Shown here: positions 2,515 through 42,794 of the stretch, piece by piece
Position numbering within the stretch: the stretch's first letter is position 1
Layout of the letters: the number at the start of each line of letters is the position of its first letter
Assembly: GCA_020721005.1 (NCBI GenBank)
Contig: DYNP01000007.1
Span: forward strand, 124,001 to 188,000
Direction: 5' to 3'
Length of the DNA stretch: 64,000 bases
From: Thiomargarita sp.
GTDB taxonomy: Bacteria > Pseudomonadota > Gammaproteobacteria > Beggiatoales > Beggiatoaceae
Program-made: the position numbers and the translations under genes
The notes under the pieces: model-generated
Seen by the model: only the letters and a program-made list of their open reading frames with translations
The model's database searches: none
What the model was told of the DNA's origin: nothing

Positions 2515-2964
2515 TTAACTCTGAATTGCAATCTTACGAGGTTGGGCCTTCTCCTTTTTAGGAATAGTAATCCGCAAAACCCCATTTTTGCCTGTGGCCG
2601 TGATATTCTCAGAATCCGCAGTATCGGGCAAACTGAAGCGGCGATAGAAAGTTCCATGCAAACGTTCCACTCGCTTATAGTCTTTCCCTTCAACCTGGTT
2701 TTCCAACTTGCGTTCCCCTTTGATGGTCAGAATACCCGCTTCCATAGAAACTTCAATCTCGTTGAGATCAACGCCGGGAATGTCCGCTTCAATTAAGAAT
2801 TGGTGAATCTCCTCCTTAATATCCACTGCGGGCACCCAAGCACTGGTAGCCACAGAAGAATAATCACTGCCCGGTCGACTTTCCAACTGTCCAAACACTT
2901 GATTGAGGTCACGGTAAAATTGATTCAAAATGCCCCAAGGTTCAGAATAACGAGTCATATTCAC
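2515..2964 (-). CDS. Small heat-shock protein (Hsp20/IbpA family), copy 1
   Basis: This is an ATP-independent holdase chaperone of the alpha-crystallin family, ~149 residues, expected in the cytoplasm. The alpha-crystallin domain is recognisable from VDIKEE through GVLRITIPKK, with the family signatures FLIEADIPGVD and ILTIKGER and the C-terminal I-x-I-type motif RKIAIQ. The longest reading frame starts at 2982, but its codons 3-4 are themselves the AGGAGG Shine-Dalgarno. The functional start is therefore GTG 2964 (6-nt spacing) or ATG 2958 (12-nt spacing). The next upstream gene is a close paralogue in the same orientation with a 56-75 nt gap, so the two may be co-transcribed. Family assignment is firm; which GTG/ATG is used is not. 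Confidence 0.93.
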   Translation of the reverse strand: MNMTRYSEPWGILNQFYRDLNQVFGQLESRPGSDYSSVATSAWVPAVDIKEEIHQFLIEADIPGVDLNEIEVSMEAGILTIKGERKLENQVEGKDYKRVERLHGTFYRRFSLPDTADSENITATGKNGVLRITIPKKEKAQPRKIAIQS

Positions 2965-3038
2965 AGTTTTCCTCCTTAACATAATAAATCTACATTAAAC
3001 ACAAAATTAAACCAAACATCTCAACTTACCCTCAAACC

Positions 3039-3476
3039 TCAGTATACATTCACTTTAATGCGGCGAGGTTGGGCTACTGCCTTTTTGGGAATATTGATCT
3101 GCAATACCCCTTGCTTGCCAACTGCCGAAATCTGCTCAGAATCTGCAGTGTCAGGCAAACTGAATTGCCGATGAAAAGTACCATAAAACCGCTCTACTCG
3201 TTGGTAATTTTCCCCGTCCACCTGTTTCTCCTGCTTTCGTTCCCCTTGAACCGTCAAGATTCCGGCCTTCATAGAAATTTCAATTTCGCCAGGCTCAACA
3301 CCCGGAATATCAACCTCAATCACAAACTGATGAGGCTCCTCACGAATATCAGCTGCCGGTATCCAATTGTACATAGAAGCTGAACGTTCCTCTTCAACGT
3401 TATGAAACGATTGTCCTTTGTTTTTAAGCACTTGATTCAACAATCCCCAAGGTTCATAAAGATTCATGTAACTCAT
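3039..3476 (-). CDS. Small heat-shock protein (Hsp20/IbpA family), copy 2
   Basis: This is a second alpha-crystallin holdase, ~145 residues, highly similar to its downstream neighbour (shared EPWGLLNQ N-terminus, FVIEVDIPGVE, GILTVQGERK, VERFYGTFHRQFSLPDTADSE). The frame opens at 3491, but a GAGG element lies 9 nt before ATG 3476, and the paralogue also begins close to this point, so 3476 is preferred. The pair looks like a tandem duplication that has diverged mainly in the N-terminal arm. Paired small heat-shock proteins (like IbpA/IbpB) often co-assemble. Whether these two do is inference. Confidence 0.93.
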   Translation of the reverse strand: MSYMNLYEPWGLLNQVLKNKGQSFHNVEEERSASMYNWIPAADIREEPHQFVIEVDIPGVEPGEIEISMKAGILTVQGERKQEKQVDGENYQRVERFYGTFHRQFSLPDTADSEQISAVGKQGVLQINIPKKAVAQPRRIKVNVY

Positions 3477-3902
3477 AATGTTAGTCCTCAAACGGTTGTT
3501 ATTCTATCTTTGGCTAAGTCAATGAATAAGGTTGGCAATCCATTTTTTCAAGAGAGGTCACTGTCCTTTTTTTCAACCCAATTGATCATTTTAAGACCCT
3601 TGACCATTAAATAAGGAATACTGTCCATATTTTCAAGAATCCTTTTTTAAGGTATAATTCAGTGTTCCCCTGCCGATTATTGACGTGAGAATACCACGAT
3701 CACTCAAACAAGTTGAGCAATTATTATCTTGTTTTAATGAGTTATGCGACCAATCAAAGTGTTTCATTAAAAAGCGGAACCATTTGCAAACTGCAATTAG
3801 GAATACAATGCAAAATGCAATTGCTGATCCCTTTAACTCAATCAGGGGATTTAAATAATTTCTTTAAAAACAAGGCATTAGTTTTATGCTAATTTAGGGG
3901 AG

Positions 3903-29549: not shown

Positions 29550-31649
29550 TCACTGATTCTTTTTAATCACCGCTTCAGCAATGCTATTAGGGGCCTCATT
29601 GTATTTGGCAAACTGCATGGTATAACTTGCCCGTCCTTGAGTTAATGATCTTAAGTCGGTTGCGTATCCGAACATTTCTCCCAAAGGCACTTCAGCTTGA
29701 ATCGTCTTGCCGGTGGGGATAGTATCCATGCCTTGCAATACTCCACGTCGGCGATTCAGGTCACCCATGACATCTCCCATGTAATCTTCTGGGGTAACTA
29801 CTTCCACGGACATGATGGGTTCCAGAAGTACCGGTTTTGCTTTTTTCACACCTTCTTTGAAGCCAATCGATCCGGCAATTTTAAAAGCCATTTCGTTAGA
29901 GTCCACTTCGTGGTAGGACCCGTCAAATACCGTGACTCGTACATCGACGACTGGGAAGCCAGCTAATACCCCATTTTGCATTTGTTCTTGAACGCCTTTG
30001 TCAATAGCAGGCACGTATTCTTTAGGAATAACGCCGCCGACAATCGCGTTGATAAATTCATATCCTTTCCCTGGGGGTAGAGGTTCGAGTCGGAGCCAAA
30101 CATGTCCGTACTGCCCCCGCCCACCAGATTGGCGAACAAATTTGCCTTCTTGCTCCAAAGTAGCACGGATGGTTTCCCGATAAGCCACTTGAGGGGCGCC
30201 AACATTGGCTTCAACGTTGAATTCACGACGCATCCGATCGACAATGATGTCCAGATGGAGTTCACCCATGCCAGAAATGATGGTTTGTCCCGATTCTTCA
30301 TCGGTTCTGACCCTAAAGGAAGGATCTTCATGGGCTAACTTGGACAGGGCAACCCCCATTTTCTCCTGGTCTGCTTTGGTTTTGGGTTCTACTGCCACGG
30401 ATATAACGGGTTCAGGGAAATCCATTTTTTCTAAGGTGATGATATGCAATTTGTCGCACAGTGTATCGCCAGTAGTGACTTCTTTGAGTCCCACCGCTGC
30501 GGCAATATCTCCAGCACACACTTCTTTAATCTCTTCTCGAGTGTTGGCATGCATTTGCAGGAGACGCCCAATACGTTCTCGCTTACTCTTAAGCGGATTG
30601 TATACGGTATCACCTGCTCCCAACACGCCAGAATATACCCTAAAAAACGTTAAATTCCCGACGAAGGGGTCAGTGGCTACTTTGAAGGCTAGGGCAGCAA
30701 AGGGTTCTTCATCGCTGGCAACTCGGGTCGCTTCCGTTTGATGCTGATCATTTAAAATGCCCTTAATAGGGGGGACATCCACGGGAGAGGGCATATACTG
30801 AACAATCGCATCCAACATGGCTTGGACGCCTTTGTTCTTGAAGGCTGAGCCACATAACACAAGGACGATCTCATTGGCAAGGGTGCGGGCTCTTAATCCT
30901 TGTTGAATTTCAGTGATATCCAGTTCTTTACCTTCTAGGTACTTTTCCATCAGCTCTTCATTGGCCTCGGCAGCGGATTCAACCACCTTTTCACGAGTTT
31001 CTTTACAGAGATCCAAAAGGTGAGCAGGAATTTCTCGTTCCTCAAAGCGCATGCCTTGGGACTCCTCATCCCAGTAGATCGCCTTCATCTTAATCAGGTC
31101 AACAACTCCTTCAAAATGTTCTTCAGCTCCAATGGGGATTTGTAAAGGAATAGGTTGAGTGGCTAAACGAGTTTTGATTTGTCCAACTACGCGCAAAAAA
31201 TCCGCACCAGCACGGTCCATTTTGTTGATGAAGGCCAAACGAGGGACTTTGTACTTGTTGGCTTGCCGCCATACGGTTTCTGATTGAGGCTCTACGCCTC
31301 CAACCGCACAAAATACGGCTACTGCGCCATCCAATACTCTTAAAGAACGTTCGACTTCAATGGTAAAATCCACGTGCCCAGGTGTGTCAATAATGTTAAT
31401 TCGGTGTTCAGGAAATTGTTGAGCCATCCCCTTCCAAAAACAGGTGGTGGCAGCCGAAGTGATGGTGATACCTCGTTCCTTTTCTTGCTCCATCCAGTCC
31501 ATGGTTGCGGCGCCATCGTGAACTTCGCCAATTTTATGAGATACGCCTGTATAAAAAAGAACTCGTTCAGTGGTGGTGGTTTTGCCCGCGTCAATGTGGG
31601 CCATGATTCCGATATTTCGGTATCTCTCAATAGGTGTTTTACGTGCCAT
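29550..31649 (-). CDS. fusA: Elongation factor G
   Basis: EF-G catalyses ribosomal translocation and, with RRF, recycling. The 699-residue protein has G1 (AHIDAGKTT), [18 protein letters not shown] and NKMDRAG in the GTPase domain. Domain IV carries the [28 protein letters not shown] segment in pattern, and [10 protein letters not shown] lies at the end. Length is normal. It is the third gene of the str operon, 89 nt after rpsG. Confidence 0.98.
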
Positions 31650-34457: not shown

Positions 34458-34865
34458 TCAGCAGAAACAGGATCCCTCGATCAATTTGTTTAAGATCAGC
34501 CCATAAAATGGCATTTCTCCGGTGGCTGTGTAAACCCAACCCAAGTGGTTAAAGCAGCCGCCACATTTGGCAAAACGCCACGCAAATCCGTTAAACCAGG
34601 TATTCTCTAGTCTGGAAATCCCCTCCTCGATCACCCCTGCAGCCTTTGAAAAACAACCCAATTGAAATTCTATCCCACTGGGATTGGTGACAATATGCTG
34701 ATGTCGACCTTGCACGATAATCCGATGTTCCGAAGTGGTGATCCAGTGTTGACAACGACGGCATAATATAGCTTTTTGAGTATGGTCCGCGGATTTCTGC
34801 TGCACAAACTCCTCAGAATCAGTGCCTGTTTCGCATTGGAAATATGAGTTTTGATACGCTATCAT
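34458..34865 (-). CDS. CULT-domain protein (bacterial cereblon-like ligand-binding domain)
   Basis: This single-domain 135-residue protein matches the CULT domain, the thalidomide-binding fold of human cereblon, also known from small bacterial proteins. The four zinc cysteines are C35/C38 (CRRC) and C101/C104 (CGGC). The three cage tryptophans are W90, W96 and W110, in WFNGFAW and HLGW. Spacings W90-W96-C101-C104-W110 equal those of cereblon W380-W386-C391-C394-W400. The C-terminal PFYGLILNKLIEG corresponds to the FWGL strand. Nothing else is attached: no Lon-N domain, signal peptide or membrane segment. It is divergent from the giant secreted-protein gene. The ligand in bacteria is not established; uridine-type and cyclic-imide compounds are known to bind such domains in vitro. 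Confidence 0.93.
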   Translation of the reverse strand: MIAYQNSYFQCETGTDSEEFVQQKSADHTQKAILCRRCQHWITTSEHRIIVQGRHQHIVTNPSGIEFQLGCFSKAAGVIEEGISRLENTWFNGFAWRFAKCGGCFNHLGWVYTATGEMPFYGLILNKLIEGSCFC

Positions 34866-34918
34866 AGAATAATTTCCCTTAACTGAGCCCTTTTTTGTTG
34901 ATCTCAGCTGCCCATTAG

Positions 34919-35015: not shown

Positions 35016-38000
35016 ATGATGAAGTGCGTCATAAAACGAATACTGCGCTCATTGTATCGTATTTTTCCTATTCCAATCTTAGGAATTTCAGTCCTCCTGT
35101 TCAACCTACCCTTCAGTTATGCACAATCTCAAACCACTCCTATTGGTGAAAATGATGCTTCTACTCAGGATACCAATTCCAGCCAGGATCTTCCAGAAAC
35201 TTCAAACGTCAATTTAACAATAACTCTAGAAGGCACAGGTCAGGGCAGTGTCACCGGTTCTATGGGTCAAAATAATACTCGGTTGGACTGTGGTACCCAA
35301 TGTACTGCAGATTATACCACTGGTCAAAGTGTTACTCTGACTGCACTCCCTGCAGAGACTGCTGAATTCGCTCAATGGAGTGGCGATTGTGCAGGTACTG
35401 AAAGCAGCCTCACCCTGCTCATGGATCAAGATAAACACTGTACTGCCACATTCACTTTGCTTATCTTCCCCTCCTCTCTCACCAATATCACTGCTTACCA
35501 GGACGGTCTCAATGGTATTGATGGGCTGCAAGGTGCCAGTTCAGTAACTCTCAGTCCAGATGGTCAATTTGTTTACGCCACTGGCTTTACTGACAATGCG
35601 GTGGCTGTGTTTTCTCGAGTACCCAGTACTGGACTTTTGAGTTTCCAAAGTCAGATCAAAGAGGGAGTCAACAACGTAAAAAATCTGCAAGGTGCCAATG
35701 CCATTGTCGTCAGTCCTGATAACAAAAATGTTTATGTCACCGCCTCCAACTCCAACGCCCTGGTAGTTTTCAATCGCGATCTCACCTTACTCCAATTTCA
35801 AGAAGATGGCGTCAATAGCGTTGATCATCTGGCTGGAGCCAGTGCTCTGGCAATCAGTCCCGATGGGTTACGCGTCTATGTCGTTGCCACTCGAGACCAT
35901 GCTCTAACTGCTTTCAGTCGAGAACCTGCCACGGGACTGCTGACTTTCTTGACCAGCCAACAAAATGGGCTTAACGGAGTGGTCGGTTTAGGAGGCGCGA
36001 CTTCCGTAGCCACCACCCATAATATCCAGGGTCCTACCGACATTTACGTGGCCAGTGGCACTGACAACCAACTCACCGCTTTCCGACGCGATTCGGCACT
36101 GGGAGAACTGATATTTCTGGGTAACTATCCCGTTACGACCACTGAACGCGCCTATGGTATTGTCGTCAGTCCTGACGATCAACACGTCTATCTGGCCACT
36201 CGTAATACCCTTATCGCCTACACTCGAGACCCCACCACGGGTAACCTCAACTCACAAGGCAAATACACCGGACCCCTCAGCGGTCTCATGGGTTTTACTG
36301 GCAGTCCCTTAGCCATCCATCCCAATGGACAAGAGCTCTATGCCACAAGTCTGGATGATGACAGTCTCACTGTCTTCCAACGAGACCCTCAAACTGGCAG
36401 CCTGGTCCTCAAAACCACTTTACACAACAACACGGGCACCCTCAACACTTTGGACGGTCCCATGGGCGTGGCTATCAGTCCCGATGGCAATCACCTTTAC
36501 ACCACTGCCCTGCAAAGTCATGCCCTGACTCTATTCTCTAACACCCTAGTCGATTTGCAACTGACTGCCACTGCTTCAACCAATACCGTTGCCCTTACTC
36601 AACCCTTGACTTATACCTTGACTCTGACCAATCAGGGCAACGACACTGCGACTAATATCAACTTAACCCACCTATTACCCAACGGGACCACTTTAAACAT
36701 CACTCCTGTTCCCAGTCAAGGCAGCTGCAGTCCCCCAATTGAGCAAGAACTCAACTGCTCCCTGGGCAACCTCGCACCCAATTCCACTCTCACCCTCAAT
36801 CTCACTCTCACTGCCCCAACTCAACTCGAAAGTCCTGCCCAACTGATCTACACCGCTTCTGTCACCAGTGCTCAACCTGATCGCAACCCAGTTGACAATC
36901 AAATCACCCTAACCACTGCCCTGGTCGAGACCCTACCCGACGCTGACCTTAAACTCAGCCTGACCACCCAACTTGCTCAAGACATCACCGGGCTTAACAT
37001 TCCCTACCAATATTTACTGACTGCAAAAAATAACGGTCCCAATCCTGTCACTGGCGCCGTGCTCACCGGCACTTTACCTGCCGCTCTGGACACTGCCAAC
37101 ACCGATCAACGCTGCCAATCCACAGCCTCCCAAACTTTCACTTGTAACTTGGGCAACCTCAGTCTCGATGCTGAAACTCAACTGACCTTGGCCATAATCA
37201 CCCCTGCCAGTCCAGATTTACTCAACTTCACAGCCCACATCTCGAGCAACGAAACAGATCCCACTCCAACCGACAATCAAGTCACTCACCAACTCACTGT
37301 CATTGAAAGTGTTGATGTGGATCTGGAAATCGTGGATGTATTCGCCACCCCCGACACCTTGCCTATCAAGTCCCAACAGCCCATTGTTTACACAGTTACT
37401 GTTCGCAACAACCATCCGGAATTACCAGCTACTGGAGTAGTGCTCAGCACCACTCAACCCTGGCCAGCCAAGCAACTCAAGTATATAGAAAGCAATGCCA
37501 ACTGCAGTCTCAACACCACTGGCCACCTCAATTGCCCCCTGGGCACTGTGGCCGCCCTGGTCAGCCAAGTTGTTGAAATACAAGCCAAACCTTTGGAATC
37601 AGCAAATGACATACCCATTGAATTCACAGTCTCTGGAAGTGGCACTGACTCCATCTCCAATAACAATACCAAAACTGCTCATCTTGGAGTCAGCGGCCAA
37701 GTGGCCAATCTCTCCGTTACCATCGCTGCGGATGAAGAAGAAATCAGTCTCAACCAACTGATCACCTACACTGTCACTGTCACCAACACCGGACCCAATA
37801 TTGCCCTGGTGGGACTGGATCTGCAAGGCATGCTCAGCCAAGGCGATTTATTGCTAGAAACTCCCATTCTCAACACTGGAGGCACTTGTCAGGCTGGGAG
37901 TAGCAGTACCAGTTTCACCTGCCAACTTTTGACCCTGCCCATCAATGGCAGTGCCCAACTGCTGATCAAAGCCGTGCCAAAAAGTACTGGGACCCTGACT

Positions 38001-41000
38001 CTGAGCGCTCAGGCCAACGTTCTCGAAGATGCCTTTGACCCTTATCCCGACAATAATACCGTTCAACAACAAACCACTGTACTTGATAAATCGGCTGACC
38101 TTGCCATCAATCTACTCGTTGCCTCTGCCCTACCCGTTCTCAAAAACAACGACCTGATCTTAGAAGCCCTGATCAGCAATCTGGGACCTAATGAAGCCAC
38201 GGGTATTCAGGTTACCTTCAACCTGCCATTAAGCTTTACCTTTCAATCAGCTGCCAGCGACCGCTTGGCTGGAGAATGCACGGAAACAGTGACTGACACT
38301 GAACGTCAAATCATCTGCCCAGTCTCCCCCATCAGTGCCCTATTCAAAGACGAAACCTTCACCATTCGCCTCACCGTTACCCCCAAAGAAGGCGGAGAAT
38401 TGACTGCCACGGCTGACATCGCCAGCCAGTTGTACGATCCCAGTCTCACCAATAACCACTCAACCCTATTTCAGCGAGACGAGGAAGGTAATCTCACTCC
38501 CTTGGACAGCATTACGATCAGCCAATTTATGGCTGACTTGAAACTGACTCTGGAACCAGTCCCAGATCCAGTCGTTGGCAATCCCTTACCCTATACCCTT
38601 AAAATAACCAATCAGGGACCAGACCCAGCCAATGCAGTACAATTGACTCATCAATTGCCCAGCCCAGAACAAGCCATTTACCGAACCGCCACCTTCAGTC
38701 CCGACACGGGTAACCTGTGCTACGATCTCAGTCCCAATGGAGAACTGGTCTGCACCCTGGCTCAAATGCCCAGAGGCAGCACGGTGACCCTCAATTTGGA
38801 ACTGCAGCCGATGGTCGCCGGCACTCAAGACTTCACCGCTACAGTGACTCCCACAGCCGAATTTGACCCCGACCTTGCCAATAACACCGTGTCCACTACC
38901 GATTATGTCAATCGTCCGGAAATTTTATTCTTTGCCGGGGCCGAAAGAGAAGGCGTTAAAAATGTAACTGGGCTGCAGGGCGTAATTGCTCTGGCCCTCA
39001 GTCCCGATGGCAATCATCTCTATGCCGCTGGCTTTAATTCCAATGCCATCACTGTGTTTAAACGTGACCCTGGTACTGGACAACTGACCTTTGTACAAGC
39101 CCTATTCGACGACACTGAAGCCGCCCAGGGCCTTGCTTCCCCCACAGATATTATTGTCAGTCCCGAAGGCAATTTTATCTATGTGACCAGTCTCAATGAC
39201 AGTGCACTCACTGTTTTCAAGCGAGATTCCCTGACCGGACAACTCACTTTTGTAGAAATACATCAAGATGGGGTACTCGGAGTGGACGGTTTAACTGGTG
39301 CCTTTAACATTGCCATGACTTCCACCCATCTTTATGTCGCCGGCTCTGGAGACGATGCCATCGCCTTATTTAACCGTAACGCTTTGACTGGACAACTGAA
39401 TTTCATAGGACTGCAACAAGATGCCAGCCTCGATGGTGTCAATGCTCTCCATCTCTCACCTGATGGCAATTATTGGGTCTCTGCCAATGCCAATACTGAC
39501 AGTCTCACTCTATTTCAACGTGATGCAGGCACTGGAGAATTGACCTTCTTACAAAACTTGGTCAATCAACAATCTGGAATATTAGGATTGGATGCTGCCA
39601 CTGACGTCATATTCAGTCCCGATGGACTTTACCTGTACAGTTTGGGCGCTGGGATTGACAATGCAGTCACTGCATTTGTGCGATCTCCGGAAAGCGATGC
39701 CTTTACATTTGTAGAATCCCATGCCAAGGGAAATGAAGGTGTGGAAGGTTTAGACGGTCCCACCAGTTTGACTTTGACCCAAGACGGTGCTTATTTATAT
39801 ATCACTTCTGCCAATGACAGCACTCTTGCCATTTGGAAACGTCAAGCTGAAACAGGCCATCTCATCTTTCTGGACAGTGTGCGCAACGGGGAAAAAGATC
39901 TTTCTGGCTTAGGGGGCGCCCAAGATGTGGTTGTCAGTCCCAATGGTACTCACATCTATGTGGCTGGTTTCAGTGACAATGCCATCAGTCTATTGAGAAT
40001 GGCCAGCAGCGACCTGCGTTTGCAAATCAGTGATTCCAAAGACGTGGTTAATGTGGGAGAAAATTATGCTTACACTTTAACTCTGAGCAATGACGGTCCC
40101 AATCCAGCCACTCAGGTTTTTTTGGAAGCCACGTTACCTGCTTCTATGCAACTGGTCAATATTCCCAATAACAGTGAAAATTGCAATGAGACCGCAGAAC
40201 ACACCGTACTTTGCAAATGGAAAATTTTAGAAGTGGGCGCCACAATCAATTTACACCTAGAAGTTTTGGTCAATGACTTTGGAGAGGTCACGCTGCAAGC
40301 TATAGCTGCCGCTGATCAGGTCGATCCCACCCCGGCAATTGCCTCCCAAACCACTCGTATCACTGCCACTGCCGACCTGAATTTATCTGCGGTAGCCAAT
40401 CCCTCGGGCTTGAGCATTGGTGAAAAATTGACCTATCATATCACCGTTACCAATAACGGTCCCCATGATGCCAATGACCTTCTGGTGACCACCAAAGCAA
40501 CAGGTCCCAGCACCCTCTTAATTTCCAATGAAATCAATGGAGTTGCTGACCGTTGTTATCCGAATCTCAGTTCAACAGAGATGGGCTTAACCTGCCCTAT
40601 TGCTGCCATCAAAACGGGTAACAATGCCCTCATCACTCTGATTATCGAGCCACAAACCGAAGGGGAATTGACCCAAACCATTTCGGTCAGCAGTTTAGCC
40701 TTTGATCCTGTTTTGCCCAATAATCAAACCACAATCACCACTTTGGTCACTTTAAATACCATCGATTCCCTCTATGATAACACCAATAAAACTTTGCGAA
40801 ATTATATTATCACTGCCACTGGGGAAGTGCGTGGTGGTCGCATAGCCGGGCACACAGTGAACCAAGGTATTTTACGCAATGTGCACATTCTCCCCGATAC
40901 ACTGGTTACTGGGGGTGGACGTTTGGGCGGTCAAATTACCAGTGAAGGTATTATTGAGGACGCCCAATTGTTGGCTGGGACTGTCATCACGGGCGGCACA

Positions 41001-42794
41001 GTGCGCGGTGAAATCATCGGTGATCCGGAACAACCAGCCACGCTTAATGCGCGCATTGAAGCAGGAACTCGGTTGTCTCATGTCATCATCGCCGTGGGCA
41101 GCACTCTGGATCCCAAGGCGATATTGGGTGAGGGAGTGCGTTTTATGGGCAATGTTACCATTCCTGCTGGACTTGATCTGACTGGCGCTTTGTCTGGCAT
41201 TTTTGAACCCATTGGAGCTCGAAAAGCAGTCAACTTGCAACAAGATGTGCTGATTGGAGAATTGGATTTACTTTCAGCAATCAATGCGTTACCGGATTTG
41301 AAAAACAACGCTCTGGTCTTTACCCAAGACCCCTTAACCGGCAATTTGCAACTGTTATTGGGGGAAGATCTATTTGTTTTGGTACCCACTTACATTCACC
41401 AAACTCATGCTTCTGATATGCCCGGCATTACTATTTATCCACATGGACAAGTCATCTTCATTACCGCGACCGGGCGAATGGTAACCACGCAGCCCAGTAT
41501 TCAAGTGCCCACGGCATTTCAAGCGGCTTTAGAAACTTTGGGACTTGCCAAATTCCGTTCCCTGCTGGATGGAAATTTACAAATTGCAGCCACGGAACAA
41601 TTGTATTTTCAAGCCCGTCCAGATTGGCAAACCCATCCTTCCGATCCGCTGAAATTATTGGGACTGGAAGCTCAACCTTCCTCATTGGTCAAGGGAATTG
41701 ACTTTTTTGTATTGCGTTTTGCCCAAGCGGATGGACAACGTCGAGAACAATGGTTTTATCCCGCACCTGCTCAGCAAATGGAATTGGAGACCACTTTGAA
41801 AGGCATTCCCGGAGCCACAGAAGTGAAGTTTTATAACAATGGCATGGTCACCGTGAAAATAGATGGCTATCTTTATCGAGGTGTATTTGACTACGTAATA
41901 GAGCGAGGACCCGCTCAACAAGTCACCCAGTTATTACTGATTGCCGATCAGAATGAGGATGGTCAAGTCGATTTACGAATCACCTATGCCAATGGTGACA
42001 AACAACGTTTATTTTTGCTACCCTCTCCCCCTTTGGCTGGTGAAATTCAAGCCATTCCCACGGTACAAGAGCAACGATACACAGTCACTCAAGATGGAGA
42101 AAATCAAGTGCGTTTGGAACAGCTACTGACTCGTTGGTTTCTAAAAATTACGCAATTGGAGCAATTGAGCACAGAGTTTTCTCCAACTATGACTGTTTAT
42201 CCAGATGGCAGCGTGTTATTCATCACTCCCAATGGACAACAAGTTCGCACTCAGCCTTTAGTTCAAGATTTCAATGGGTTGCAAAACACATTGCGGAGTT
42301 TAGGCTTACCCAATGCCACTGTGCAAGGCAATGGTAACTTAATGGTACCATTCAATGCCCAATGGTATTATGTAGCCAGACCTGGACTTTCTTCTCAATT
42401 GGCGTGGTTGACTTTAGCGCCCGGACTCTATAATATTCCCACTTCATTACCTGCGGTAATCTCGCTGTTGTTCGTGTTCCGGGATGAATTTGGCAACAAA
42501 CGTCAACAATTCATTTATCCAGTGGCAAAGGAGCCTGAGAATATCTACCGATTCTTCATGAATGCTCCCGGTGTCTATTCAGTTGTAATGAGCAACGAGG
42601 GTATGCTGACAGTTGAAGGAACTGGTGACATTCGATTCCGGGGCATTCTCGACTATACAGTGGAACGGGGAGGTTTAGCCACTGGAGGAATTCAATTTAG
42701 CCAAACCACTGATATCAATGCCGATAGTTTGGAAGATTTTGTTTTAATCTATGGGAATGGGGATAAACAAATCATTTACCAATTGCCATTTTAA
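35016..42794 (+). CDS. Giant multidomain secreted protein (InlB-like, two propellers, DUF11 repeats)
   Basis: This 2592-residue protein has a signal peptide ending near SYAQS (~37). Next comes an InlB-type repeat domain (~66-150) with cysteines in LDCGTQC and GDCAG. The first lactonase/YVTN-like beta-propeller (~155-510) repeats the LSPDGQFVYATGF pattern. Six DUF11 repeats follow (~511-1300; AD/VDL starts, TNQGNDTATN, LPNGTT). A second propeller (~1300-1660) and two more DUF11 repeats (~1664-1920) come next. A glycine-rich ITATGEVRGGRIAGHTV region (~1922-2080) precedes two copies of a ~255-residue module (~2117-2592). AAGGAG lies 5 nt before the ATG. No LPXTG, PEP-CTERM or RTX motif is visible, so the export route past the periplasm is unclear. 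Adhesion or sheath function is inference. Confidence 0.88.
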   Translation: MMKCVIKRILRSLYRIFPIPILGISVLLFNLPFSYAQSQTTPIGENDASTQDTNSSQDLPETSNVNLTITLEGTGQGSVTGSMGQNNTRLDCGTQCTADYTTGQSVTLTALPAETAEFAQWSGDCAGTESSLTLLMDQDKHCTATFTLLIFPSSLTNITAYQDGLNGIDGLQGASSVTLSPDGQFVYATGFTDNAVAVFSRVPSTGLLSFQSQIKEGVNNVKNLQGANAIVVSPDNKNVYVTASNSNALVVFNRDLTLLQFQEDGVNSVDHLAGASALAISPDGLRVYVVATRDHALTAFSREPATGLLTFLTSQQNGLNGVVGLGGATSVATTHNIQGPTDIYVASGTDNQLTAFRRDSALGELIFLGNYPVTTTERAYGIVVSPDDQHVYLATRNTLIAYTRDPTTGNLNSQGKYTGPLSGLMGFTGSPLAIHPNGQELYATSLDDDSLTVFQRDPQTGSLVLKTTLHNNTGTLNTLDGPMGVAISPDGNHLYTTALQSHALTLFSNTLVDLQLTATASTNTVALTQPLTYTLTLTNQGNDTATNINLTHLLPNGTTLNITPVPSQGSCSPPIEQELNCSLGNLAPNSTLTLNLTLTAPTQLESPAQLIYTASVTSAQPDRNPVDNQITLTTALVETLPDADLKLSLTTQLAQDITGLNIPYQYLLTAKNNGPNPVTGAVLTGTLPAALDTANTDQRCQSTASQTFTCNLGNLSLDAETQLTLAIITPASPDLLNFTAHISSNETDPTPTDNQVTHQLTVIESVDVDLEIVDVFATPDTLPIKSQQPIVYTVTVRNNHPELPATGVVLSTTQPWPAKQLKYIESNANCSLNTTGHLNCPLGTVAALVSQVVEIQAKPLESANDIPIEFTVSGSGTDSISNNNTKTAHLGVSGQVANLSVTIAADEEEISLNQLITYTVTVTNTGPNIALVGLDLQGMLSQGDLLLETPILNTGGTCQAGSSSTSFTCQLLTLPINGSAQLLIKAVPKSTGTLTLSAQANVLEDAFDPYPDNNTVQQQTTVLDKSADLAINLLVASALPVLKNNDLILEALISNLGPNEATGIQVTFNLPLSFTFQSAASDRLAGECTETVTDTERQIICPVSPISALFKDETFTIRLTVTPKEGGELTATADIASQLYDPSLTNNHSTLFQRDEEGNLTPLDSITISQFMADLKLTLEPVPDPVVGNPLPYTLKITNQGPDPANAVQLTHQLPSPEQAIYRTATFSPDTGNLCYDLSPNGELVCTLAQMPRGSTVTLNLELQPMVAGTQDFTATVTPTAEFDPDLANNTVSTTDYVNRPEILFFAGAEREGVKNVTGLQGVIALALSPDGNHLYAAGFNSNAITVFKRDPGTGQLTFVQALFDDTEAAQGLASPTDIIVSPEGNFIYVTSLNDSALTVFKRDSLTGQLTFVEIHQDGVLGVDGLTGAFNIAMTSTHLYVAGSGDDAIALFNRNALTGQLNFIGLQQDASLDGVNALHLSPDGNYWVSANANTDSLTLFQRDAGTGELTFLQNLVNQQSGILGLDAATDVIFSPDGLYLYSLGAGIDNAVTAFVRSPESDAFTFVESHAKGNEGVEGLDGPTSLTLTQDGAYLYITSANDSTLAIWKRQAETGHLIFLDSVRNGEKDLSGLGGAQDVVVSPNGTHIYVAGFSDNAISLLRMASSDLRLQISDSKDVVNVGENYAYTLTLSNDGPNPATQVFLEATLPASMQLVNIPNNSENCNETAEHTVLCKWKILEVGATINLHLEVLVNDFGEVTLQAIAAADQVDPTPAIASQTTRITATADLNLSAVANPSGLSIGEKLTYHITVTNNGPHDANDLLVTTKATGPSTLLISNEINGVADRCYPNLSSTEMGLTCPIAAIKTGNNALITLIIEPQTEGELTQTISVSSLAFDPVLPNNQTTITTLVTLNTIDSLYDNTNKTLRNYIITATGEVRGGRIAGHTVNQGILRNVHILPDTLVTGGGRLGGQITSEGIIEDAQLLAGTVITGGTVRGEIIGDPEQPATLNARIEAGTRLSHVIIAVGSTLDPKAILGEGVRFMGNVTIPAGLDLTGALSGIFEPIGARKAVNLQQDVLIGELDLLSAINALPDLKNNALVFTQDPLTGNLQLLLGEDLFVLVPTYIHQTHASDMPGITIYPHGQVIFITATGRMVTTQPSIQVPTAFQAALETLGLAKFRSLLDGNLQIAATEQLYFQARPDWQTHPSDPLKLLGLEAQPSSLVKGIDFFVLRFAQADGQRREQWFYPAPAQQMELETTLKGIPGATEVKFYNNGMVTVKIDGYLYRGVFDYVIERGPAQQVTQLLLIADQNEDGQVDLRITYANGDKQRLFLLPSPPLAGEIQAIPTVQEQRYTVTQDGENQVRLEQLLTRWFLKITQLEQLSTEFSPTMTVYPDGSVLFITPNGQQVRTQPLVQDFNGLQNTLRSLGLPNATVQGNGNLMVPFNAQWYYVARPGLSSQLAWLTLAPGLYNIPTSLPAVISLLFVFRDEFGNKRQQFIYPVAKEPENIYRFFMNAPGVYSVVMSNEGMLTVEGTGDIRFRGILDYTVERGGLATGGIQFSQTTDINADSLEDFVLIYGNGDKQIIYQLPF
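41365..42791 (+). other. Duplicated ~255-residue C-terminal module in the giant protein
   Basis: Two copies share ordered motifs: TIYPHGQVIFIT / TVYPDGSVLFIT (~2139, ~2393), DGNLQI / NGNLMV, QWFYPAP / QFIYPVA, FRGILDYTVERG / YRGVFDYVIERG, an acidic DQNEDGQVD / DINADSLED (2311, 2566), and YANGDKQ / YGNGDKQ. The constant 254-255 residue spacing proves an internal duplication. The acidic motif looks like a calcium-binding loop. I do not recognise the domain. Confidence 0.8.

Follow-up and report, generated by a model that had tools for sequence, protein, structure and literature searches.

The minus-strand gene at positions 34458-34865 of a 64,000-nucleotide stretch of the Thiomargarita sp. genome (assembly GCA_020721005.1, contig DYNP01000007.1, positions 124,001-188,000; hereafter, the window) encodes a genuine, complete member of the CULT family, to which the thalidomide-binding domain of human cereblon (CRBN) belongs. 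Cereblon serves as receptor for drugs of the thalidomide type and for many protein degraders; its bacterial CULT relatives have been known since 2014-2015. The 135-residue protein encoded by this gene consists of the CULT domain only (residues 31-133). Its family membership is secure, since sequence and profile matches go together with the superposition of its AlphaFold2 model on the bacterial protein MsCI4 and on human cereblon; residue conservation within the family agrees.

The closest characterized relative is MsCI4 (MGR_0879, cereblon isoform 4, of Magnetospirillum gryphiswaldense; PDB 4v2y and others). Comparison with this protein had been proposed in the initial annotation, and a phmmer search of PDB sequences returned it with an E-value of 9e-21, with cereblon chains following at 9e-11 to 5e-9. 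A profile built from 37 relatives improved these values to 4.5e-33 (MsCI4) and 1e-18 (cereblon). Pfam represents only a related family, Yippee/Mis18 (PF03226), and membership in it was rejected: the match over residues 33-117 scored 24.1 bits, below the Pfam cut-off of 26.6. Among the 37 aligned family sequences, 34 match Yippee/Mis18 at E <=0.01. The Pfam scan of the 135-residue protein yielded no other family above its own cut-off, and no NCBIfam model matched the protein. Yippee/Mis18 proteins are likewise zinc-binding beta-tent relatives, from which CULT is distinguished by the tri-tryptophan cage (PMC4287342).

The structural model was built with AlphaFold2 from the alignment; a single-sequence prediction reached a predicted local distance difference test score (pLDDT) of only 35 and was discarded. 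The mean pLDDT of the model is 85, with 95-98 across residues 31-130. Its best match in the PDB is MsCI4 (Foldseek E-value 1.7e-10). Superposition by VIA-align on MsCI4 (6r0q_B) gave a Z score of 20.5 and a root-mean-square deviation of 0.9 Å over 103 residues (31-133). The superposition on the CULT domain of human cereblon, also suggested in the initial annotation, gave a Z score of 18.5 and a deviation of 1.3 Å over 105-106 residues. The superposed cereblon entries include 9nr3, whose title names a complex with GLUL-cN, which we take to mean a cyclised C-terminal Asn. Homology thus shows the protein to have a predicted beta-tent fold that is pinned by zinc and carries an aromatic cage.

Conservation was assessed in the same 37 family members, which share 33-53% identity. 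Fifteen positions are invariant: C35, C38, N61, P62, C71, A75, W90, F91, W96, C101, C104, G109, W110, F120, and L123. They comprise the zinc cysteines, the cage tryptophans, the tip of the NPxG motif, and a few core and other positions. The initial annotation had described a compact, complete bacterial CULT protein with four cysteines (35, 38, 101, and 104) and three tryptophans (90, 96, and 110) in one 135-residue frame, and this description was borne out by the sequence and profile matches, the predicted fold, and the pattern of conservation. The W-W-C-C-W spacing of 6-5-3-6 is, as it had stated, equal to that of W380/W386/C391/C394/W400 in human cereblon. Given the phmmer E-values of 9e-21 for MsCI4 and 9e-11 to 5e-9 for cereblon chains and the invariance of all seven residues, this cereblon-like pattern is far above chance. 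The human tryptophans W380, W386, and W400 and their MsCI4 equivalents W79, W85, and W99 have been described (PMC8900816), and Y101 of MsCI4 is listed among its cage residues (PMC4287342). The NPxG hairpin motif has also been described for CULT proteins, in which the hairpin supports the cage (PMC4449219). Altogether, the protein combines a related sequence, the three cage tryptophans, two CxxC motifs, NPxG, and the predicted beta-tent in a single domain. The positions of these features are given in Table 1.

Table 1. Coordinates in the window of the CULT gene and its sequence features.
Feature	Position	Strand	Basis
Stand-alone CULT-domain gene, 135 residues	34458..34865	minus	Open reading frame; ATG at 34865, stop ends at 34458
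Possible ribosome binding site AAGGG, 9 bases 5' of ATG	34875..34879	minus	Read from sequence; consensus only
N-terminal extension, residues 1-30, probably flexible or weak helix	34776..34865	minus	pLDDT 42-60
CULT domain (predicted beta-tent fold), residues 31-133	34467..34775	minus	AlphaFold2 pLDDT 95-98 (31-130); VIA-align to MsCI4 6r0q_B
First zinc motif C35-x-x-C38	34752..34763	minus	Invariant, 37 sequences
NPxG hairpin motif N61-P62-S63-G64	34674..34685	minus	N61, P62 invariant; G64 at least 90% (37 sequences)
Cage tryptophan W90 = MsCI4 W79, human W380	34596..34598	minus	Invariant; MsCI4 alignment
Cage tryptophan W96 = MsCI4 W85, human W386	34578..34580	minus	Invariant; MsCI4 alignment
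Second zinc motif C101-x-x-C104	34554..34565	minus	Invariant, 37 sequences
Cage tryptophan W110 = MsCI4 W99, human W400	34536..34538	minus	Invariant; MsCI4 alignment
Y112, fourth cage residue = MsCI4 Y101	34530..34532	minus	At least 90% conserved (37 sequences)

Like MsCI4, the Thiomargarita protein is a stand-alone domain of similar length that retains all cage and zinc residues; the two share 36-38% identity and a predicted fold that agrees to about 1 Å. They differ in length (135 versus 124 residues), in the N-terminal extension, and at F94, which replaces the conserved tyrosine Y83 of MsCI4; phenylalanine at this position is common among relatives. Extensions of variable length precede the CULT domain in the relatives as well. 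The cage, zinc site, and fold are also shared with the thalidomide-binding domain of human CRBN, at about 30% identity and a Z score of about 18. Unlike CRBN, the bacterial protein comes without the LON-like part, the DDB1-binding part, and the ubiquitin system. A role as a cereblon-type CRL4 substrate receptor was accordingly rejected for this single-domain chain. On the pocket side, N88 and F94 stand in place of H378 and Y384 in the human protein. The gene is present in one chromosomal copy, and the plus strand over the same interval contains several stops. No signal sequence was evident on reading the protein sequence; a cytoplasmic location is most likely.

No obvious catalytic nucleophile occurs among the positions invariant in the 37 sequences, so the protein is more likely a binder than an enzyme. 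That it recognises a cyclic imide, as raised in the initial annotation, is plausible from homology. Our best guess, with the chances about evenly balanced, is that it binds cyclic imides in the cytoplasm, namely the cyclised C-terminal Asn or Gln of damaged proteins, and serves in protein quality control. In such a mechanism, a structural zinc held by C35, C38, C101, and C104 would pin the two beta-sheets together, and W90, W96, W110, and Y112 would form an open aromatic cage that, to judge from MsCI4, closes over a small flat cyclic imide. The natural ligand would be, as with human cereblon, the C-terminal cyclic imide formed by cyclisation of a terminal Asn or Gln. The protein would thereby read protein damage, and would either pass damaged proteins on to a general protease, for instance Lon, as an adaptor or sequester them. 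C-terminal cyclic imides are recognised by human cereblon (PMC12117711), and the mark is reportedly made by PIMT (PCMT1; PMC13001092).

Several genomic observations are consistent with a role in quality control. All 29 CULT-positive genomes in our sample of 369 genomes of the class have a strong PIMT match (E-value 5.5e-55 or better). Gene neighbourhoods were compared across 66 CULT loci, including the source locus; rpoH, YjbQ, and TldD were named from their sequences and in part from Pfam. An rpoH-like sigma-70 gene lies upstream on the same strand in six Beggiatoa-like contigs (L094, L096, L099, L097, L105, and L093), at distances of 160, 161, 190, 479, 780, and 1889 bases. A tandem pair of TldD/PmbA-like metallopeptidase genes lies directly upstream in three contigs of Aminicenantes/Acidobacteriota (L055, L056, and L063). 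Other observations count against this role. Nearly all sampled genomes of the class (359 of 369) match the PIMT family PF01135; by hand count, a strong PIMT match is also present in about 70% of the genomes that lack CULT, and genomes without one tend to be small. The co-occurrence of PIMT and CULT therefore fits a writer-reader pair and is non-discriminating. The neighbourhoods with rpoH and with TldD each occur in a single lineage only, and neither gene lies beside CULT in the source genome. With CULT in only 15 of 43 genomes of the family, to which Thiomargarita and other Beggiatoa-like bacteria belong, its distribution is uneven even between close relatives and indicates a dispensable function. 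To our knowledge, bacteria have no DDB1/cullin machinery, so that the bacterial output would differ from that of cereblon. Finally, MsCI4 binds uridine as well, with low micromolar affinity (PMC4449219).

It is this last property that underlies the chief rival, the sensing or buffering of uridine or other pyrimidine nucleosides, which we regard as rather unlikely. Here the cage would close around uracil, and in its folded state the protein would signal to another component or withhold the ligand from it. MsCI4 has low micromolar affinity for both uridine and thalidomide, whereas it binds neither thymidine nor cytidine; its site folds upon binding (PMC4449219). A dUTPase gene is located directly downstream of CULT in the closely related contigs L056 and L063; this is one lineage, however, and across lineages CULT has no recurrent pyrimidine genes as neighbours. 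We likewise doubt that the ligand is some other small cyclic compound or modified metabolite, such as a lactam, a hydantoin, or a dihydrouracil-type compound, scavenged or detoxified independently of proteins. Structures of MsCI4 are known with valerolactam and many ring ligands, the patchy distribution and unconserved neighbours would suit accessory detoxification, and the beta-tent relatives include formaldehyde-activating enzyme and MsrB (PMC4287342). Nevertheless, beyond zinc site and cage the family has no conserved catalytic residue, and no transporter or catabolic gene recurs beside CULT except TauE-like permease genes at four gammaproteobacterial loci.

The initial annotation had also proposed that the CULT protein regulates or marks the neighbouring secreted protein. 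This neighbour is a divergent gene at 35016-42794 for a probably secreted protein of 2592 residues with DUF11 repeats and lactonase-type beta-propeller repeats. The two starts lie 150 bases apart, which would allow a shared control region. The large protein appears from its sequence to have a signal sequence, whereas the CULT protein has no evident one, and no homologue of the large gene lies beside CULT at any of the 65 other loci. The only match is a Parabeggiatoa gene (L105) that has just a C-terminal region in common with the large protein and lies more than 4 kb away from CULT. That the CULT protein marks, chaperones, or regulates this neighbour is thus highly improbable. The preferred reading as a cyclic-imide binder could be extended to a bacterial pathway in which damaged proteins are marked by PIMT, recognised by CULT, and disposed of by Lon protease or a LON-domain protein; we consider this extension unlikely as a whole. 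In cereblon, CULT and a LON domain are fused in one chain. The source genome encodes two Lon-length proteins with LON domains and one short stand-alone LON-domain protein, all on other contigs. As partners of CULT these proteins are a lead, nothing more.

The comparison of neighbourhoods called for in the initial annotation showed that the genes around CULT change with lineage, and a conserved neighbourhood was discarded as a clue to function. No neighbour family recurred beyond single lineages across the 66 loci, and the commonest Pfam families among immediate neighbours accounted for only 4 of 116. The same-strand neighbour at the source locus, a family 3 solute-binding protein gene 374 bases away, has no counterpart beside CULT in the 65 other loci. 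A YjbQ (UPF0047) gene was found within 2 kb of CULT at four loci of different lineages (L047, L101, L125, and L123), which may be chance. In one gammaproteobacterial locus, an EF-G-like gene of the same orientation (L122:5856-8063) follows CULT at a distance of 8 bases; in the source window, fusA (29550-31649) is located on the same strand 2.8 kb downstream of CULT. The window also contains two adjoining genes for Hsp20-like small heat-shock proteins (2515-3491).

Of the 369 genomes sampled from the class, 29 carry CULT relatives. Overall the relatives span at least seven phyla, which also include Thermodesulfobacteriota, Nitrospirota, Aminicenantes/Acidobacteriota, Spirochaetota, Candidatus Ozemobacter, and one cyanobacterial genome. 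In the 2015 description by Lupas and colleagues, the bacterial group came mainly from deltaproteobacteria and otherwise from a few alpha- and gammaproteobacteria and a single spirochete (PMC4287342). The spread is now broader than in that description, and the kind of protein is unchanged. Searches of phage, plasmid, and viral collections gave no match to CULT, and carriage of the gene by phages or plasmids was rejected. In the protein tree (68 sequences, 112 columns), the source protein forms a long branch (0.82) placed weakly beside Nitrospirota (92/56), and MsCI4 falls in a different branch. Its nearest relative is 54% identical. Since the placement is not firm, it gives no grounds for claiming either transfer or vertical descent. 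In Thiomargarita nelsonii (L041 and L093, the same contig), none of the codons ATG, GTG, and TTG precedes the domain in the CULT frame, which therefore either uses a rarer start codon or is disrupted.

The source protein adds a new organism to an already described family. It is not unusual, because CULT proteins that stand alone have already been described as a group in bacteria (PMC4287342), and a single sequence contributes little beyond MsCI4. The interest of the family lies in the retention of the cereblon cage by bacteria: cage, zinc site, and hairpin are intact at 33-53% identity in at least seven phyla of bacteria, which are not known to have ubiquitin ligases of the cullin type. The Beggiatoa-like lineage with rpoH next to CULT and the Aminicenantes lineage with TldD are places in which a role in protein damage could be examined. 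If the pathway from PIMT through CULT to Lon were true, the degron recognition of cereblon would predate ubiquitin.
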